20,242 bases of DNA from a virus. Of this stretch, positions 4,394 to 16,384 are shown in pieces. Position 1 is the first letter of the stretch; each line of letters opens with the position of its first letter. The stretch is taken from the IMG/VR virus record IMGVR_UViG_3300034407_003447, positions 1 to 20,242 of that record, one strand, 5' to 3'. The notes beneath the pieces are model-generated. The model worked only from the letters and a program-made list of their open reading frames with translations, ran no database searches and was not told the origin of the DNA. Both the position numbers and the translations under genes were made by a program.

Positions 4394-7066
4394 ATGACCG
4401 TATATGGGTTCCATAAACTTACAAGTACATTGAAAAGCATGGAAAGTATAGGTTCAGATGATAGATATTTTGAAGGACTACTAACAGTACAAATGAAAGA
4501 CAAACAAGGTGAAGTTACCATTGTTGATGAATTGTACAAGGTATTACCTGTATGGATTGACAGGGGAGCACCAATAAGTGACACTCACACTAACAGAATT
4601 GTAGGTAAGGGCATAAACTATTCCAGAACAACCGTAAAAAATGATGATGGTGAAGAACTACCTGCAATTAAAATTACAGGAAAGATTTTCAAGAACTATG
4701 AATTAGATAATGTTATCTGGGAGAAAATTAAAAACAATGAATACAAAGGATTGTCATTCGGTGGTGCAACAAGATCAGCAAGATCACCAATCAGAATGAA
4801 AGATGGCAGTACTGCTTATGCTCTAGGTGATTTAGAACATTATGAGGTTGCAGTATGCAAAGATCCTGCCGTACCAATGGCTATCATTACAGATTTCAAT
4901 CAGATTGCAAAAGCAAACTTCAACTCTTCTGTAAGAGATGATGGCAAGATGGTAATTCAATGTGACAACATGGGTTGCTATGTCAACAAAGACTCTCTTA
5001 TAAAAATAGAAGATGATGAAGATGAGAATACACAAGTAACAATTTTAGATGAATGGGAAAATGAAACACACCCAGATAAGAATGGAAAAACTGAAGGTCT
5101 TAGAACAACAAAATCAGATTTGTTAACTGTAATGGAAGGTGACAAACCTGAAAATTATCAAGCAGTTGAAGAAGGAAAATCACGTGGAAGAGCCATTGAT
5201 AAAAAAGACAACCCATGTTGGGAAGGATATGAACAATATGGTATGAAAGATAAAAATGGTAAACAAGTTCCAAACTGTGTAAAAAAAGCAGAAGTTACGC
5301 AATGTGCACATTGTAATGGAACAGGATATCATGGAGATGAAAAATGTTCAAAATGTGGAGGAACAGGTAAACTTGAAGTAAATAAAGCAGAAGAAGATAA
5401 AGAAAAGAAACCATTAAACAAACCAATGAGAGATGATGGTGATAAGAAATTTAAGGTATATGTTAGAGATCCAAAAACTGGAAACATAGTAACTGTAAGA
5501 TTTGGTGATCCAAACATGGAAATTAAACGTGACGATCCTGAAAGAAGAGCATCATTTAGAGCAAGACATGATTGTGATAATGCCAAAGATATTACTACAC
5601 CTCAGTATTGGTCATGTAAGATGTGGGAAAAAGACACATCTGTTACAGAATACACTGAAAAAGCAGGTGGAGGTTATGCTGACAATGATAATTTTGCTGA
5701 TCCAGATACATCTTTATTATTAGATGATGATGAAGAAAAGAAAAAATTCATGGAAAAGAAAGAAATGATGGACGCAGTAGATGATATGCCTGATAAAAAA
5801 GATGTAGAAAAAGCCATTGAAATTTTAGAGAAAGCAGGATACAGAGTTGACACAGAAGACAGAAATAACGGTACAGAAATAAATGATCTACAAAGAGAAA
5901 AAAGACAATTTAATGGTACTGAAGGAACATTATCTGAAAAACTTCCTATGAATATTCAACAAGCAAACCTAAACGAATCACAAACATTTGAACAAAAAGT
6001 ACAAGCATTAATGAGAGAAGGTAAGTCAAGAGAATCAGCAGAAAAAATTGTTGGTTCATTTGTTCACAAAGTTGAAGCATCTTCTGGTTCAGGTGGAGCA
6101 GGTATTGGTGGAGCAAATCTAACTAATGGTGGCACATTAACAACAGATACAGATGGTGTAAGAAACGCAGTTTATAATAGAAAAAAGAGAAAAAAATCAA
6201 GAGATATTAGCAATACTAACGCAGGTGGAGTTATGGAATCAGCATTTAATCAAAATCCACCTAACGCACAAAGATTGAATAACAAATCAAATGCAATTAG
6301 AAAACTAAACAAGGTACATGCCTTAATGAAGTTAAACAAAGTAAAAACACAATTAGATGGTGGATTTGGTGAAGAATCTGCTTCTACAAGACATGCAACT
6401 AACTATAAGGAGGGTGTCAGAAAATTACCAAAAACAGGTAAATCCCCAATAGAAGGAGGTGATCAAGGTACTTGGAACACACATAACTATCCAAATATAA
6501 CAGATGATGCTAGACTTGTTCCGTCAAGTGAATCAACATCTTGGGAAGTAAATGATGATAATGAACGAAAAAGAATACAGAGACAAGGAACAAAACAATT
6601 ACCAAAGGGTGGTAAATCACCAAAAGATTTGGGTAAAGCATTGGCTGAACTTAAAAAACTACATATTTCAGGTGGATTAGGCTCAAGAGGTCTAGGTTCA
6701 GAAGGTGGATATACACAAGGTTCAGGAGAATCTACACAGGTAAGCAATACCCGTAAAAGACCTGAAGATGATAGGGTTAAAGTTAAGGCAAAAGGCAAAT
6801 ATGAACAAGGTGGTAGATATTTTAATTCTTATGAAGTACCTGTAGGTGATGTTCCTAATGTAGAAGGTACAACTTTAAGACAAGGTAAACCACAAACTAA
6901 AGAATCAAAAAGAAGAAGAGCAGCAACTAGATTAATGGGTGATGCAAAACAAAGAAAAGTTATGAGTAATTTTAGTAATTTTCAAAATATGGTAAATCCT
7001 GACAAAAAAACAATAAAAGAAAGAAAATTAGACGAAGAAAGGACAAATAGATTATATAACGATTAA
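4394..7066 (+). CDS. Prohead maturation protease fused to a long multi-motif tail, 890 aa
   Basis: Residues 1-175 look like an HK97-type prohead serine protease. They contain His65 in SDTHTNRIVGKG, Ser121 in YKGLSFGG, and the closing strand EVAVCKDPAVPMA (151-163), matching the His/Ser pattern of that family. The family cleaves scaffold and capsid precursors inside the prohead. The remaining 700 residues are mostly low-complexity and hydrophilic. They carry discrete motifs: CWEGYEQYGMKDKNGKQVPN (275-294, continuing to a Cys); two DnaJ-like CxxCxGxG repeats (304-311, 318-325); a segment with FRARHDCDNAKD and YWSCKMW (388-411); REGKSRESAEKI (541-552); and an internal repeat KLNKV (637-641, 646-650). 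I recall the first and third motifs from head proteins of marine phages. The fusion is far longer than a standalone protease and may be processed or serve as internal scaffold. Confidence 0.8.
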   Translation: MTVYGFHKLTSTLKSMESIGSDDRYFEGLLTVQMKDKQGEVTIVDELYKVLPVWIDRGAPISDTHTNRIVGKGINYSRTTVKNDDGEELPAIKITGKIFKNYELDNVIWEKIKNNEYKGLSFGGATRSARSPIRMKDGSTAYALGDLEHYEVAVCKDPAVPMAIITDFNQIAKANFNSSVRDDGKMVIQCDNMGCYVNKDSLIKIEDDEDENTQVTILDEWENETHPDKNGKTEGLRTTKSDLLTVMEGDKPENYQAVEEGKSRGRAIDKKDNPCWEGYEQYGMKDKNGKQVPNCVKKAEVTQCAHCNGTGYHGDEKCSKCGGTGKLEVNKAEEDKEKKPLNKPMRDDGDKKFKVYVRDPKTGNIVTVRFGDPNMEIKRDDPERRASFRARHDCDNAKDITTPQYWSCKMWEKDTSVTEYTEKAGGGYADNDNFADPDTSLLLDDDEEKKKFMEKKEMMDAVDDMPDKKDVEKAIEILEKAGYRVDTEDRNNGTEINDLQREKRQFNGTEGTLSEKLPMNIQQANLNESQTFEQKVQALMREGKSRESAEKIVGSFVHKVEASSGSGGAGIGGANLTNGGTLTTDTDGVRNAVYNRKKRKKSRDISNTNAGGVMESAFNQNPPNAQRLNNKSNAIRKLNKVHALMKLNKVKTQLDGGFGEESASTRHATNYKEGVRKLPKTGKSPIEGGDQGTWNTHNYPNITDDARLVPSSESTSWEVNDDNERKRIQRQGTKQLPKGGKSPKDLGKALAELKKLHISGGLGSRGLGSEGGYTQGSGESTQVSNTRKRPEDDRVKVKAKGKYEQGGRYFNSYEVPVGDVPNVEGTTLRQGKPQTKESKRRRAATRLMGDAKQRKVMSNFSNFQNMVNPDKKTIKERKLDEERTNRLYND

Positions 7067-7118: not shown

Positions 7119-7691
7119 ATGACTCTTGAAGAACTTAGAAAAGAAGATCATGAAGACGAAGAAAAAGAAGAGAAAGAAGAAGATGAAGTAGAATCAAAAG
7201 AGAAATCCTTTGATGAAGCATTAATCGAAACTCTCTCAACTTTAACTGAACATGTGAAAGCATTGTCAGATTCTCAAGCCGAATTAGAGTCTAAAGTCGA
7301 AAAAGCACTCTATGAGGAAAGCGACGCACAGTTAAACATCAAACCAAAAGAATCAGATTCTGAAGACATTGGTGCTGATGTTACTGTACCAGATACATAT
7401 CAATCAAATTCTGTTCAAGCAGGATTAGATGATGATAAATCTGGAGAAGACAAACCAGAAAGTGATGATAACGGACTAGCTATGCAACAAAAAGCTAATT
7501 TTGATTTCACCACAGAAACACCTAGACCAAGTGCATCTGTCGAAAACGTAAACAAATCTGCTAACGTAGAATTGAATATGGTTTTGAAAGATGCAAGAGC
7601 TCAAGGTTATGAAGGTTTATCTACCGTAGCAAAAAGAATCTTAGCAGGCGATTACGGTTCTCCTTCGGAAAACGACGGAGGTATATATTAA
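7119..7691 (+). CDS. Acidic coiled-coil protein, scaffold candidate, 190 aa
   Basis: The N-terminus is extremely acidic with Lys (EDHEDEEKEEKEEDEVESKE), followed by a helical, coiled-coil-like part (LIETLSTLTEHVKALSDSQA, about residues 36-65). A long Asp/Glu/Ser-rich linker leads to a more ordered C-terminus (LNMVLKDARAQGYEGLSTVA and on). Scaffolding proteins and capsid delta domains are typically acidic and helical, end in a capsid-binding segment, and sit between protease and capsid genes, exactly as here. Its stop lies one base before the capsid ATG, and its last codons hold the Shine-Dalgarno site of that gene, so the two are co-translated. It is presumably removed by the protease encoded upstream. 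The call rests on composition and position, not on a named family. Confidence 0.7.
   Translation: MTLEELRKEDHEDEEKEEKEEDEVESKEKSFDEALIETLSTLTEHVKALSDSQAELESKVEKALYEESDAQLNIKPKESDSEDIGADVTVPDTYQSNSVQAGLDDDKSGEDKPESDDNGLAMQQKANFDFTTETPRPSASVENVNKSANVELNMVLKDARAQGYEGLSTVAKRILAGDYGSPSENDGGIY
7677..7682 (+). promoter_or_regulatory. Strong Shine-Dalgarno site for the major capsid gene
   Basis: GGAGGT, a perfect match to the archaeal 16S rRNA 3' end, 10 bases before the ATG at 7693. It is the best such site in the window. Confidence 0.75.
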
Positions 7692-7692
7692 A

Positions 7693-8916
7693 ATGCCTAA
7701 AATACAAACAATCGACGAACTAGAAGCACTCTATTATGGATATAATAGAAACCTCATTAGAAAAGCTGACGCTCCAATCACAACATCAACTACAGGTACA
7801 TTCAATGCCGTATTTGGTGCTTATGCATGGGCTCAACTTAACTTAGAGGCAAACGCCTTTGGTATCCTTCCAAAAGTCCCTTGGGACAAATCTGGTTGGA
7901 GAACTATAACTGCAAAACCAACATTGAATACAACCAATGGTAACACCACATTAGGTGGTACAGCAGAAGGTGGACAAATTGCTGAAACAGTAAAGCCAAC
8001 TTTACAAGAGATCGATATCCGTCCAAAGACAGCTCAGTTGCCTTTCAGTGCATCTGAAGTTATGGAATGGCTCGCAACTCACAGTAAAGACGATATTTGG
8101 GGAGGCTTAGGCTCACTCAGATTATACATGGCAGTTCAGCACAAAGAATTCATCAATAGAATGTTGCTAGCAGATGTTGAAAGTGCAGCAGCAGGAGCCA
8201 GTGGTAACTACACAGGAACTACTGACTTTGAAACCCTAGATAGAATTATTTCTTCACACGCTGAAGAAAATGCTCTAGGTGGCTCACACGCAAACTTCTA
8301 CAACTGTTGGGAAGAAGGAAATGCAGGTATTAACAGAAATACCAGTGCACAACCTGCTTTCGACTGTACTGTAGAATCAGCTTCAGGTACAATAGGTACT
8401 GATGGTGTCCTTACCGACGATACATTACGAACTTTCCTCAGAAAGATCCGTATTGCAGCAGGTAAAGATCCAAACGTATTCCTAGGTAGCCACGAAGTTT
8501 ATTCCGAAATCCAAGGCTTGTACATGCCTTCTGTAAGGGTTGCAAATCCATACGGTGAGAGCTTAGTACAAATCGACGTAAACGGAATTCAAACATTCAA
8601 GGGTACTGGAGTAGGTATTCACGTAGATTCCATCTATGGAGTTCCATTCATTCCAACCAAAGACGCACCTTCTGGTGGCGGTGATGAGGTAGGAAGACTC
8701 TTCGCATTAGATACATCTGATGCAGAAGGATATGGTTATCCAAGAATCGGAATTCAAGTAGCAATTCCTACAGAGTATTACGAAGCAACCCGAAGAACTC
8801 CTGCATACCCATTCGTCAACAATGCATTTGTTGAGAAAGGTGTTTACAGAACTATGGGTGAAACTGTATGTCGTCACTTCAAATCTCAAGGTAAGATCAG
8901 AGATATCAAACTCTAG
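7693..8916 (+). CDS. Major capsid protein, HK97 fold, 407 aa
   Basis: This is the shell protein. Length, position after protease and scaffold, and content fit an HK97-fold capsid protein: an N-terminal arm with FGAYAWAQLNLEANAFGILP (residues 41-60), a long spine-helix-like region (WGGLGSLRLYMAVQHKEFINRMLL, in 136-159), and an A-domain-like C-terminal part rich in Gly and aromatics ending MGETVCRHFKSQGKIRDIKL. Codon use is distinct: more C-ending codons (for example ATC, TTC, TCC, GAC) and higher GC than neighbouring genes, as expected for the most highly translated viral gene. A strong Shine-Dalgarno site supports the start. A T-run terminator follows the stop. It probably is trimmed by the upstream protease, though no cleavage site can be shown. 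Confidence 0.85.
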   Translation: MPKIQTIDELEALYYGYNRNLIRKADAPITTSTTGTFNAVFGAYAWAQLNLEANAFGILPKVPWDKSGWRTITAKPTLNTTNGNTTLGGTAEGGQIAETVKPTLQEIDIRPKTAQLPFSASEVMEWLATHSKDDIWGGLGSLRLYMAVQHKEFINRMLLADVESAAAGASGNYTGTTDFETLDRIISSHAEENALGGSHANFYNCWEEGNAGINRNTSAQPAFDCTVESASGTIGTDGVLTDDTLRTFLRKIRIAAGKDPNVFLGSHEVYSEIQGLYMPSVRVANPYGESLVQIDVNGIQTFKGTGVGIHVDSIYGVPFIPTKDAPSGGGDEVGRLFALDTSDAEGYGYPRIGIQVAIPTEYYEATRRTPAYPFVNNAFVEKGVYRTMGETVCRHFKSQGKIRDIKL

Positions 8917-8983: not shown

Positions 8984-9928
8984 ATGATTAAATCAACTTT
9001 CGCAATAGTTGCAATTCTAGCAATAGGTGTAACTTTTGCACACGCAGAAGAATCAGTAGTACAAGTGCCATTTGAATATCATGGTCAATCTTGTTGGTTA
9101 GAATCTGATACAATCTATCAATGTACTTGGGAAGGCATAATCAAACCATTGACAGTTGAAGAACTTGAATTATTTCAAAATGTATTAACTGAGGAACAAT
9201 ATGAAGCAGAGTTAGAAAAACTCACAGCAGTTCCAGAACCAGAAGTTGTTGTAGATGACAGAACTCCTGAAGAAAAATTAATTGACAAACTTCAAAAGAA
9301 ATTGTTTAAGGGAGAAGCTGATGCAACAGAGGCAACACATCTAAGATTGTTAAAACAACTAGATGAATGTCAACGTGGACTTGGTAACAGTGCAGCAATA
9401 CAGGACAGAACCTCATTTGTTATCTCAGAGTTTGAGTACGGTAAATACAACAACATTGAGATAAAAGGACAAGTAGGAGATTTGTTACAGGCAATTCAAG
9501 AATGTAAAGCACAGCAAACATTGGAACATTATGTACTAAGTGAGGAATACAAAAACAAAGCCAATGGTGCTGATGATGTATTCTATGATCACTTGGGAGC
9601 ATGGAAAGGAATTCAGGCACTAGATTACGAGTTATACACCAAAAACTCTGAAAGATTAGACTTGAGACCTATCTGTAACAGTTGGCTCTATGCTGACACT
9701 CACAAGGTTGAAATGGGCTGTGAAAATGTATATGAGTATGAGGGAAAGACAAATGTCAATCCTAAAGGCTACATAACCTACTACTCACAAGCACATTCAG
9801 AGTATCAACAATACTTGAATGAGAATAGCAGATACGCAACTACTGAGGACAAACAAATCCAAGAACAGATAGCACAGCCTATATTAGAGGAAATGCTAGA
9901 AGAAAATCGTTGGTATAATAGGGAATAA
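8984..9928 (+). CDS. Secreted six-cysteine protein of unknown function, 314 aa
   Basis: The N-terminus is a textbook Sec signal peptide: MIKS, a hydrophobic core (TFAIVAILAIGVTFA) and an AHA/EE cleavage site near residue 21. The mature part has six cysteines (37, 47, 129, 174, 231, 246), an even number suited to disulfides outside the cell. It begins with a small domain (VPFEYHGQSCWLES ... CTWEG), then a helical charged region (about 52-130) and a Tyr/Glu-rich C-terminal half without membrane anchor. It has its own TATA box and a T-run terminator, so it is an independent unit between the capsid and decoration genes. An exported protein is unusual in a head cluster; it may alter the host surface, block other viruses, or aid release. 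It resembles host-type secreted proteins in style, which suggests acquisition from a host. Confidence 0.75.
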   Translation: MIKSTFAIVAILAIGVTFAHAEESVVQVPFEYHGQSCWLESDTIYQCTWEGIIKPLTVEELELFQNVLTEEQYEAELEKLTAVPEPEVVVDDRTPEEKLIDKLQKKLFKGEADATEATHLRLLKQLDECQRGLGNSAAIQDRTSFVISEFEYGKYNNIEIKGQVGDLLQAIQECKAQQTLEHYVLSEEYKNKANGADDVFYDHLGAWKGIQALDYELYTKNSERLDLRPICNSWLYADTHKVEMGCENVYEYEGKTNVNPKGYITYYSQAHSEYQQYLNENSRYATTEDKQIQEQIAQPILEEMLEENRWYNRE

Positions 9929-13140: not shown

Positions 13141-14130
13141 ATGGTACGAACAGGTGCACATACTTATGTAAAATATGGTTGGGAAACAGGTTTTGCAACA
13201 ATAGGACAAGCATCAGATATTACTAAAAAATTCGGATTACAAGATAGATTATCAAGTTGGACACTAACAAATAATAAAGTAGATTTAAATAAACTTAATC
13301 AAAATACAGTAGATAAATATGCATACGGTCAAGAATCAGGAACTATGTCAGTTGGATTCACATTATCCAATCCTTGGATATTTGGAACCGTTTTAGGTGC
13401 ACCAACAAAAACAGGTTCAGGATCACCATATACTTACACTTATCCACAAAGTTCAGGACTTCCTAAATCCCCTAGAACAATACAAGTGGAAGTAGGTTAT
13501 GATGGAGCATCAGCAGATATCGTGAGAACAGCAAAAGGTTGCCTAGTTAATTCATTTTCAATTAACGCAGCAGTTGGTGGACTTGTTGATTGTACTGCTG
13601 ATATTACTTATGGTAAAGAATCAGCACCATCTACATCATTAACTTCAGCACCATCATTACCAAGTGTAGAATTTCCATATACTTTTGCACATGCTGAATT
13701 AACAATAGGTGGAAATGTAGTTGCACAATGTCAAGATGCAAGTGTCAATATTTCACAAAATACAGAATTACTTTATGGCTTAAATTCACATCAAGCAGTA
13801 GATTCATTTAAAAGAGTTTTATCAATGACAGGTTCATTTAGAGCATCTTTAATTAATAAAACATTATTTGAAAAAGTACTTGAACAAATTAAAGCAGGTA
13901 CAGCAGGTGCTTCAACTTACAGCGAAACTGTTGGTGGAAGTCCAGAATTCAAATTAACATTTATTAAAGACAATACTAATGAAAAAATTGAAATTACTAT
14001 GACAGGTTTAGGTATTAATGAATATTCAGTAACAGGTATTGAGCCAGTAGAGCCAGTATTTGAAGAAATTACTTGGACAGCAAAAACAATTTCAGTAGTA
14101 GCAAAAAGTACCGTAGCTGCTGAAGAATAA
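13141..14130 (+). CDS. Major tail tube protein, 329 aa
   Basis: Tail tube proteins stack as hexamers to make the DNA conduit. Here two beta-rich halves can be seen: residues 1-160 with GTMSVGFTLSNPWIFGTVLG (61-80), YTYTYPQSSGLPKSPRTIQV and a strand pair GCLVNSFSINAAVGGLVDCT (128-147); and 170-310 with PYTFAHAELTIGGNVVAQCQ, DASVNISQNTELLYGLNSH and a long strand-rich end. The NSFSINAAVGG-like hairpin and the FAHAELTIGG...VNISQNTE pattern are typical of siphovirus and haloarchaeal tube proteins. Position between terminator and chaperone agrees. Length is larger than lambda gpV, consistent with a duplicated or decorated tube fold. No contractile sheath gene is next to it. Confidence 0.8.
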   Translation: MVRTGAHTYVKYGWETGFATIGQASDITKKFGLQDRLSSWTLTNNKVDLNKLNQNTVDKYAYGQESGTMSVGFTLSNPWIFGTVLGAPTKTGSGSPYTYTYPQSSGLPKSPRTIQVEVGYDGASADIVRTAKGCLVNSFSINAAVGGLVDCTADITYGKESAPSTSLTSAPSLPSVEFPYTFAHAELTIGGNVVAQCQDASVNISQNTELLYGLNSHQAVDSFKRVLSMTGSFRASLINKTLFEKVLEQIKAGTAGASTYSETVGGSPEFKLTFIKDNTNEKIEITMTGLGINEYSVTGIEPVEPVFEEITWTAKTISVVAKSTVAAEE

Positions 14131-14167: not shown

Positions 14168-14575
14168 ATGATAAAATCATTTGAAATAGATTGGGAAGGT
14201 AAAAAAGAAACTGTTGAATATGAAGATGATATTACTTTTGGTGAATTAGAAGCTATTCTAAATAAATGTCTTGATATGACACATGTAAATGAACCTAAAG
14301 TTAATTTACCATTATATAGACAAATGATATTAACATCAGTTATAACAAAAGCACCTTTTGAAACAAAAGATACAGCAGCAATTAGAAATCTTAAAGCAAG
14401 TGTTGCAAAAACAATCATGAAGGAGGTCATGAAAGACTACCCTTTAGCAAAGTATCTGGAAGAGTGGGTGGAGACTTTCGTGGGGGAGGATATACAAGAT
14501 CAACTGGATCAATATACTACTTCTTCGCAAGGGAATTCGGTTGGGACAAACAAAAAGTCGACTCCCAACAAGTAG
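14168..14575 (+). CDS. Tail assembly chaperone, gpG-like, 135 aa
   Basis: It lies between tube and tape measure genes, where almost all long-tailed phages carry a chaperone that coats the tape measure before tube polymerisation. The N-terminus has strands (SFEIDWEGKKETVEYEDDIT) then helices (FGELEAILNKCLDMT; AIRNLKASVAKTIMKEVMKD), matching the small gpG fold, and the C-terminus is low-complexity (DQYTTSSQGNSVGTNKKSTP). A second reading frame overlaps its end in the -1 phase (open from 14395 to the stop at 14644-14646), the arrangement of a gpG/gpGT frameshift. Composition from about 14415 to 14570 is richer in G and C than flanking DNA, consistent with two-frame coding. Confidence 0.75.
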   Translation: MIKSFEIDWEGKKETVEYEDDITFGELEAILNKCLDMTHVNEPKVNLPLYRQMILTSVITKAPFETKDTAAIRNLKASVAKTIMKEVMKDYPLAKYLEEWVETFVGEDIQDQLDQYTTSSQGNSVGTNKKSTPNK

Positions 14576-14646
14576 GATATCTTAACATTATTATATCTGA
14601 ATATAAGGAAGAAGCACGCAAACAAAGAGTAAATTTAAATAAGTAG
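14168..14646 (+). CDS. Frameshifted tail chaperone, gpGT-like fusion, about 159 aa
   Basis: If ribosomes slip back one base in the 14395-14575 overlap, translation continues in the -1 frame to the TAG at 14644-14646. The -1 frame encodes TGSIYYFFAREFGWDKQKVD then a helical end (VGYLNIIISEYKEEARKQRV), which resembles the T domain of phage chaperone fusions (a short acidic/aromatic segment with GW followed by helices). This frame is not preceded by a good start codon of its own; a GTG at 14464 is possible but has no TATA box or convincing Shine-Dalgarno site. The best slip site is G GGG GAG at 14482-14488, where a GGG-decoding tRNA re-pairs perfectly. The fusion would be about 106 + 53 residues. 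The T domain binds the tape measure or tube in lambda. Confidence 0.65.
14482..14488 (+). other. Candidate -1 ribosomal slippery site
   Basis: Frame-0 codons GTG GGG GAG give the heptamer G GGG GAG. The P-site GGG pairs fully after a -1 shift; the A-site GAG would mispair at one position (GGA), so it is not a perfect X XXY YYZ site. No strong downstream pseudoknot was identified by eye. Confidence 0.45.
14633..14641 (+). promoter_or_regulatory. TATA box for the tape-measure operon
   Basis: ATTTAAATA centred about 26 bases before the ATG at 14663; it overlaps the last codons of the chaperone -1 frame. Confidence 0.65.
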
Positions 14647-14662
14647 CACGGATACGATATAT

Positions 14663-16384
14663 ATGGTCATTCCTACTGATGAAATGGAGATGGAAGCTTA
14701 TACTAAGTATTTAGAATTTTTCAAAAAGAAAATTGAATTACAAAGAGTTTCATCAATTCAAAGACGTAAAGAAGTAGCTGATTATGAGCACATGCTTGTA
14801 ACTCAAAGACAAATGCAAAGAACAATGACTAGATTGTCAGGTGCAGGTGGTGCTTTAGGAAGCGTGATGAATTTATTACAAGGAGTAGGATCAATGAAAG
14901 TTGGCAACTATCAAAGACTACAACAGTTAAATAAACAAGGTACACTTACTTCTCAAGAAAGAAAAGAAAAACTCATGTTAGAAGGTAGTGGAAAAACTAA
15001 TGCAGTACTAACAAGATTAGATAATTTGTTTGAAAAGACATTTGGTGGTGATTCTAAATGGAATCAAATGTTTGGAGGTCAAGGTAAAATGGCAGCAGCA
15101 GGTATTGGAATGGGTGCAATAGGAGCAGGAATAGGATTATCATCAAAAATTATTGATTCATCTCCTTTAATGCAACAGATGTTAAAATTACTTAATTTTG
15201 GTATTATGCTTATACTTAGACCTATAGGTGATTTCTTTGCAATGTTATTTAGACCTATATTGATACTTTTATTAAGAAAATTCATTATACCATTTTATCA
15301 AACTGTTTATCCTTGGTTTATGAACAATGCTAGAATGATAAATGATGTGGTTAGTAGTGTAGAAAGTATAGGTGAAGATATTACTAAAGGTGTTACAGAA
15401 AGTGCTAAGGTGGCATCAGCAGGAATTTCAAAATCAACTACTGCATTAATTACAAAAATAGCACCTAAAGCTTTTGCAACAACAATTAAAGAAACTCCTA
15501 TACCAAAAGCACCAAAAGATGCAGTAAGTCCAAAAAGTGTTGTTACTACAACTAAAACAATAGCAAAAACTGCAACTGCCACTGAAAAAATTATAGCAAA
15601 TGTAGGTAAAGCAGTAAAAGTAATGGATACAATATCATCTGCTCCTGCAAAGATAATAAAAGCAAGTGTATCTCCGTTGTTATCAGCAGCAAAAACTGTT
15701 AGTAATGTAGGTGTTAATCTTGCTACTGTAGGTCAAGCAGATAAAATAGCTAAACAAACATCAAAAGTTACTTCACCTGCTGTTAAATCATTACAAACAG
15801 CTTTACAAAAATCAGGAATGATGGCAGCAGCAAAAACAAGTTCTAGATTTATACCTGTTGTAGGACAAGCATTGTTGGCAGTAGATGCAGCAGGTTCTCT
15901 TATGAAACAATTTGCTAAGCCTCAATATGACATGGTACGAGACGGTGCATTAGGAGTAGGTAAATTCTTTGGAGATGATAAAGGAACTTATACTGAACAC
16001 GCATTAGACTTTTTAGGATTTGGTAAACAGTCAACTGCTGAACAAGTAACAGGAATGGCAGGTGGAATAATGGATTTCTTTACTGGACACAAAAGAGATC
16101 AGAAAAAGGAAGGTGCATTTGGATTAGGTGGAATATTTGGTATGGCTAATGGTGGAGTTATCAGAGAACCAATTAGAGGTATAGGTAGATCAGGACAAAA
16201 ATACATGTTTGGTGAAAGAGGATCAGAAGCAGTAATACCAATGAATAGAATAACAAATGATGCAGGCGTAACATTAAACGTAACAGTTAATGGTAGCATA
16301 TATTCAGATAAAGATATGCTTAAATTCCAAAGAACAATAATGAAAGCAATAGAGACAAGTAGTACGAGGAAGGCTAAACTATGA
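14663..16384 (+). CDS. Tape measure protein, 573 aa
   Basis: The tape measure sets tail length and is threaded through the tube. Evidence: an N-terminal coiled-coil-like region (about 10-60); a Gly/Ala hydrophobic patch (AAAGIGMGAIGAGIGLSS, 144-161); strong membrane-like helices (MLKLLNFGIMLILRPIGDFF and AMLFRPILILLLRKFIIPFY, 173-212); a long Ala/Lys/Thr/Val-rich helical stretch; and the C-terminal signature ANGGVIREPIRGIGRSGQKY with FGERGSEAVIPMNR (495-529), the GGI..EP...GE.G.EAV.P motif common to tape measures. At roughly 1.5 angstrom per residue it would measure a tail of about 86 nm, short to medium. Its stop overlaps the next ATG (ATGA), with Shine-Dalgarno GAGGAAGG upstream, so the next two genes are co-translated. 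Confidence 0.85.
   Translation: MVIPTDEMEMEAYTKYLEFFKKKIELQRVSSIQRRKEVADYEHMLVTQRQMQRTMTRLSGAGGALGSVMNLLQGVGSMKVGNYQRLQQLNKQGTLTSQERKEKLMLEGSGKTNAVLTRLDNLFEKTFGGDSKWNQMFGGQGKMAAAGIGMGAIGAGIGLSSKIIDSSPLMQQMLKLLNFGIMLILRPIGDFFAMLFRPILILLLRKFIIPFYQTVYPWFMNNARMINDVVSSVESIGEDITKGVTESAKVASAGISKSTTALITKIAPKAFATTIKETPIPKAPKDAVSPKSVVTTTKTIAKTATATEKIIANVGKAVKVMDTISSAPAKIIKASVSPLLSAAKTVSNVGVNLATVGQADKIAKQTSKVTSPAVKSLQTALQKSGMMAAAKTSSRFIPVVGQALLAVDAAGSLMKQFAKPQYDMVRDGALGVGKFFGDDKGTYTEHALDFLGFGKQSTAEQVTGMAGGIMDFFTGHKRDQKKEGAFGLGGIFGMANGGVIREPIRGIGRSGQKYMFGERGSEAVIPMNRITNDAGVTLNVTVNGSIYSDKDMLKFQRTIMKAIETSSTRKAKL
16366..16373 (+). promoter_or_regulatory. Shine-Dalgarno site for the 16381 gene
   Basis: GAGGAAGG inside the end of the tape measure gene, 7 bases before the ATG at 16381. 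Confidence 0.65.

Follow-up and report, generated by a model that had tools for sequence, protein, structure and literature searches.

In phage lambda, and in tailed phages generally, one tail gene gives the products gpG and gpGT by a shift of reading frame (Xu, Hendrix and Duda 2004, cited in PMC5009743). Tail chaperone −1 frameshifting has also been proposed in haloarchaeal viruses, in 2013 for HVTV-1, HCTV-1, HCTV-2, and HCTV-5 (covered by the reviews PMC8211752 and PMC5009743) and, for Hardycor1, in 2021 (PMC7911831), so that the kind of event considered here is itself known. An earlier note on this DNA had called −1 frameshifting in archaeal viruses little documented, which is a fair description, although it passed over these proposals. 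Experimentally supported −1 frameshifting in archaea essentially comes down to one Sulfolobus gene, fucA, for which it has been shown (PMC8211752), and the archaeal virus cases were proposed from sequence. For −1 frameshifting stimulated by an internal Shine-Dalgarno (SD) sequence, the spacing published is 9 to 14 nt, and an absence of competing SDs just upstream has been described for such stimulators (PMC5009743). As to the heptamer reported below, the open-access literature yielded CCCUUUA (or CCCTTTA) as a slip site only for the CP/RdRp of Giardia lamblia virus, where it was proposed as a −1 heptamer and where the mechanism has been challenged (PMC8230311).

The DNA that we analyzed (here called the window, meaning the whole stretch of 20,242 nt from IMG/VR record IMGVR_UViG_3300034407_003447) carries a tailed-virus structural module with a portal gene (784 to 2652) and a gene for an HK97-type major capsid protein (7693 to 8916; PHROG 24667). 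The two-frame gene G (14168 to 14575, plus strand) is located between a tail tube gene (13141 to 14130, plus strand; PF18906, Phage_tube_2, E value = 4e-21) and an ORF that probably encodes the tape measure protein (14663 to 16384, plus strand). The latter assignment was made from position and from variable length, which ranges from about 475 to 860 aa among the complete ORFs at this position in relatives; family searches with the ORF itself gave no match. In relatives too, G is flanked by ORFs of corresponding size. Elsewhere in the module, a strong GGAGGT ribosome-binding site (7677 to 7682) stands ahead of the major capsid gene (ATG at 7693), unlike many other ORFs of the window, G included, which have no ribosome-binding site. 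A signal-peptide protein is encoded 3′ of the capsid gene (8984 to 9928), and different, apparently secreted proteins with a common C-terminal end (..WYxxAMxQLxxMVxxLGL) are encoded in the records of three relatives, at L165:2201-2959, L168:3318-4109, and L170:16901-17605.

The zero-frame product of G is 135 aa long. Sequence profiles of G matched no known family in Pfam, PHROG, or PDB, and tblastn found no G in annotated phage records. An AlphaFold model of G (pLDDT 79) was ordered over residues 1 to 106, and in a comparison with the predicted viral structures of BFVD several of the best matches were proteins annotated as tail assembly chaperones, at a moderate TM score of about 0.5; these were the chaperones of Bacillus phage 019DV002 (E value = 3e-4), a gcode-4 phage (E value = 3e-3), Haloarcula hispanica tailed virus 2 (HHTV-2; E value = 3e-3), and Bacillus phage Gemini (E value = 4e-3). 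A fold search of G against PDB returned nothing significant, and the profiles of G and of T, the segment encoded in the −1 frame, gave no convincing match there. Among 38 members, five T segments weakly matched PHROG 9001, “tail assembly chaperone” (best E value = 0.007), and a fold search with T yielded nothing beyond a weak match, with a 72-aa protein from an “uncultured archaeal virus” (E value = 0.05). A lambda-like pair of G and G-T is the best reading of the position, the predicted fold resemblance, and the weak match of T, and the tail assembly chaperone of the earlier note is in line with this reading.

Relatives were collected from IMG/VR. G alone gave 30 loci and a profile of G gave 80; the major capsid protein was chosen as a third query (80 loci) against bias towards the slip site. 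We obtained 68 distinct relatives with a complete G over the site, 53 from the G searches and a further 15 from the capsid search, the remaining loci of which stop short of the slip site. G proteins in this set go down to about 45 to 50% identity to the G of the window. The 68 sequences have a common ancestry, and the counts given below are not independent events; the argument is based on the contrast with neighboring columns of the same alignment and on synonymous randomizations.

Within G, the sequence C_CCT_TTA at 14440 to 14446 (zero-frame codons TAC CCT TTA; −1 codons CCC TTT) is a canonical X_XXY_YYZ heptamer. CCCTTTA was exact in all 68 distinct relatives (53/53 of those found through G and 15/15 of those fetched by capsid), and the sole records without it are those that end ahead of the site. 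The slip codons were never swapped for synonyms: synonymous identity across the 53 sequences was 1.00 at the three codons, versus the 0.60, 0.48, and 0.29 expected from the codon usage of the window, where TAT and TAC stand at 131:51. Furthermore, the residue preceding Pro varies across the 68 relatives (Tyr in 49, Phe in 13, and His in 6), yet the third base of its codon is always C, and it is thus the base that is conserved and not the amino acid. In the window, CCCTTTA occurs only once on both strands, with 2.6 occurrences expected. Downstream of it, folding gave no signal of a stem-loop (mean z between −0.3 and +0.2 for six folding windows in the 53 sequences). On the evidence of these comparisons, the candidate slip site is C_CCT_TTA and protein constraint is not the cause of its conservation.

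The earlier note had instead placed the shift at a G-run (14482 to 14486), 42 nt downstream of the heptamer, and had overlooked both the invariant CCCTTTA and the SD-like candidate stimulator 12 nt upstream of it. GGGGG does exist at these positions, a single Gly tRNA could re-pair there in the −1 frame (GTG GGG GAG), and GGGGGAA is often annotated as a frameshift motif in SEA-PHAGES data (PMC10885494). However, GGGGG was found at the position in only 3 of 33 aligned relatives, against CCCTTTA in all, and a shift at the G-run is extremely improbable.

The frame that a slip at the heptamer would open is itself conserved. Part of the G ORF (135 aa) is shared, as the earlier note had described, with a −1 frame that stays open between 14395 and the TAG at 14644 to 14646; this frame encodes a FAREFGWD-type segment (...IYYFFAREFGWD...). 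Counted from the heptamer, T comprises 66 codons and the TAG (14446 to 14646, plus strand), and the zero-frame tail of G past the slip site, 42 codons and a stop (14447 to 14575, plus strand), is dual-coding with it. The −1 frame is open in 68/68 relatives, and it extends 21 to 65 codons past the G stop. Over the overlap it was open in 53/53 sequences, versus about 6% of synonymous random draws on average and 0.6% for the window. T has the conserved pattern IYYFFAxEFGWxKxQVDxQP..YL..LI (also written IYYFFAREFGWxK..VD), in which the F, Y, A, and W columns are conserved.

A T with a start of its own was the finding that the earlier note had named as speaking against frameshifting. No conserved start codon for T was found in the 68 relatives, and 16 of them have no ATG, GTG, or TTG at all before the T motif; moreover, the −1 frame opens only 3 to 6 nt ahead of the heptamer in 11 of the 68. 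Many relatives do have a GTG, ATG, or TTG at one shared position, +21 relative to the TTT codon (GTG 14464 in the window), from which T might be started as a separate gene within G, but this triplet is imposed by the codon that precedes a conserved Trp in the zero frame (x-TGG) and is not a start codon in other relatives. A separate start would also leave the invariant heptamer unexplained, and we regard this account of T as very improbable. The alignments argue that the −1 frame is maintained as protein and has no start of its own, and a programmed −1 frameshift, which the earlier note had proposed, is strongly supported by the invariant heptamer, the open −1 frame, and the lack of a separate start for T.

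The sequence AAGGAGGT (14420 to 14427, plus strand), with the core GGAGGT at 14422 to 14427, ends 12 nt upstream of the heptamer; the spacer (14428 to 14439) therefore lies inside the published range. It is the fifth strongest position for anti-SD pairing in the 20-kb window, and the four stronger positions overlap one another at a single site near 6453 to 6456. Among the 34 in-frame XXXYYYZ sites of the window, only the CCCTTTA site has pairing stronger than −8.5. Averaged over the relatives, pairing along the gene is strongest in 9-mers whose first base lies 20 nt ahead of the heptamer (−9.5 kcal/mol). It is near 0 in the 30 to 40 nt preceding the SD, and competing SDs are missing just 5′ of the SD. 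Pairing of this SD-like kind is kept in 62/68 relatives, and a hexamer GGAGGT, GGGGGT, AGGAGT, or TGGAGT ends exactly 12 nt upstream of the heptamer in 47/53, which makes the spacing almost constant. Furthermore, GC3 in G goes from 0.05 ahead of the SD to about 0.55 to 0.59 from the SD onward; this jump marks an added constraint, the downstream part of which is expected from dual coding.

Pairing is weak in six of the 68 relatives (L030, L031, L076, L101, L116, and L119), all of which retain the heptamer; the heptamer is thus present throughout, whereas the SD is common but not universal. These six are natural tests of an SD requirement. In L030, L031, and L076, the −1 frame has a stop almost directly ahead of the heptamer.

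The SD-like element might also be an internal ribosome-binding site, or simply reflect the residues that it encodes, with no stimulatory role. An ATG does come after it in many relatives; at 14429 in the window, this ATG is only 1 nt past GGAGGT, too near for initiation, and it is in the G frame and missing in several relatives. With regard to the encoded residues, the observed pairing (mean of −10.6 kcal/mol) is about twice that of synonymous randomizations of the same residues (−4.9 kcal/mol, standard deviation of 0.3), which makes amino acid constraint an insufficient explanation. We consider it unlikely that the element lacks a stimulatory role and treat it as a candidate stimulator of the slip at the heptamer. 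RNA polymerase slippage is known from certain prokaryotic genes that contain A or T runs and could in principle change the frame in place of the ribosome. The homopolymers in CCCTTTA are no longer than 3, though, and an SD at −1 spacing would have no role in such slippage, which has next to no chance of being the cause of the frame change here.

We are highly confident, from the conservation described above, that the tail chaperone gene makes both G and G-T by an SD-aided −1 slip of the ribosome at C_CCU_UUA. At the efficiency that we assume, most ribosomes would read G to its stop (14573 to 14575) and release the 135-aa product. The element AAGGAGGU (14420 to 14427), about 12 nt behind the heptamer, would pair with the anti-Shine-Dalgarno sequence of the 16S rRNA, and the strain of this pairing would favor a simultaneous back-slip by one base, of tRNA-Pro from CCU to CCC and of tRNA-Leu from UUA to UUU. 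The slipped ribosomes would then follow the −1 frame to the TAG and produce a G-T of 159 aa, consisting of G residues 1 to 93 and 66 further residues with the FAREFGW domain. By analogy with phage lambda, G and G-T may jointly coat and fold the tape measure protein and recruit the tail tube protein.

Evidence on the host comes from the relatives of the window. The nearest named relatives of the capsid protein belong to haloarchaeal viruses and to viruses assigned to Methanofastidiosa and Methanomassiliicoccales. An amoC gene was found in 4 of 18 records of relatives (L162, L163, L164, and L165, the records of L077, L020, L030, and L017) and none in the window. One of these amoC sequences was scored and reached 53 bits, versus a cutoff of 319 for bacterial AmoC; we take it to match marine ammonia-oxidizing archaea. 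The amoC genes look like the auxiliary ammonia monooxygenase genes of viruses of ammonia-oxidizing archaea. In at least two relatives (L164 and L165), amoC lies just 3′ of the capsid gene, and in L162 (TAA) and L163 (TAG) the amoC profile match crosses one in-frame stop. The record of one relative also carries an archaeal-type RadA and a segment of MCM; at L168:18190-19910 (minus strand), the MCM helicase next to this RadA is represented by its C-terminal part alone (216 aa). Proviruses were looked for in sequenced genomes with the G profile and with the capsid, and none was found. Taken together, the amoC, RadA, and MCM genes of relatives and the archaeal-virus kin of the capsid argue for an archaeal host, in line with the archaeal virus that the earlier note had assumed. 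Judged from these relatives, the decoding ribosome is very probably archaeal and the host probably lies in the Nitrososphaerota, among the ammonia-oxidizing archaea. We think it likely that, in viruses of ammonia-oxidizing archaea, anti-SD pairing by the archaeal ribosome during elongation drives a −1 shift at C_CCU_UUA, a heptamer otherwise unreported in prokaryotes, without a downstream structure.

Compared with the systems described so far, what appears new is the virus group, the invariant C_CCU_UUA, and the conserved internal SD that would act on archaeal ribosomes. The arrangement resembles that of lambda in that a gene between tail tube and tape measure encodes G and a −1 fusion, G-T, over an XXXYYYZ heptamer; no sequence similarity to the lambda system was found. 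The slip site is G_GGA_AAG in lambda and C_CCU_UUA here, the overlap of T with G is deep here, with the heptamer 136 nt before the end of G, and an SD-like element is present here. The signal appears to work in part like that of Escherichia coli dnaX, in that an internal SD precedes an XXXYYYZ heptamer by 9 to 14 nt, here by 12. The dnaX site has A_AAA_AAG and a downstream hairpin, whereas a hairpin signal was not seen here and the −1 frame gives an extension of 66 residues; because the downstream stem-loop was not found, the signal is not placed in the dnaX family. Giardia lamblia virus, with which the heptamer is shared, differs in being a eukaryotic double-stranded RNA virus with a pseudoknot.

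These 68 natural variants of one signal make its parts, and a role of the anti-Shine-Dalgarno during elongation in archaea, directly testable. They also correct how the tail chaperone is annotated in a widespread, probably archaeal, virus group in which T would otherwise be missed or called a separate ORF. The haloarchaeal viruses are likewise archaeal tailed viruses with a −1 G/G-T, and the capsid protein of HVTV-1 is 24% identical to that of the window; the G of HVTV-1, tried as a sequence relative, was rejected (hhalign probability of 0.2%). Their slip sites are GGGAAAG, GGGAAAC, AAAAAAC, and GGGAAAT, as opposed to C_CCU_UUA, and in the four viruses checked 10 to 37 nt separate the slip site from the end of G. 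No mention of an SD stimulator for archaeal sites was met in the open-access reviews (PMC8211752 and PMC5009743), a silence that is weak evidence. In HCTV-1 a weaker GGGAGA stands 7 nt before the slip site, and HCTV-2 has no good SD, but in HVTV-1 (L166:6450-6471) and HCTV-5 (L171) a GGAGGA ends 9 nt before the published GGGAAAG. If our reading is true, the locus would be a case of conserved, natural SD-stimulated recoding in archaea, possibly common to haloviruses of the HVTV-1 type.
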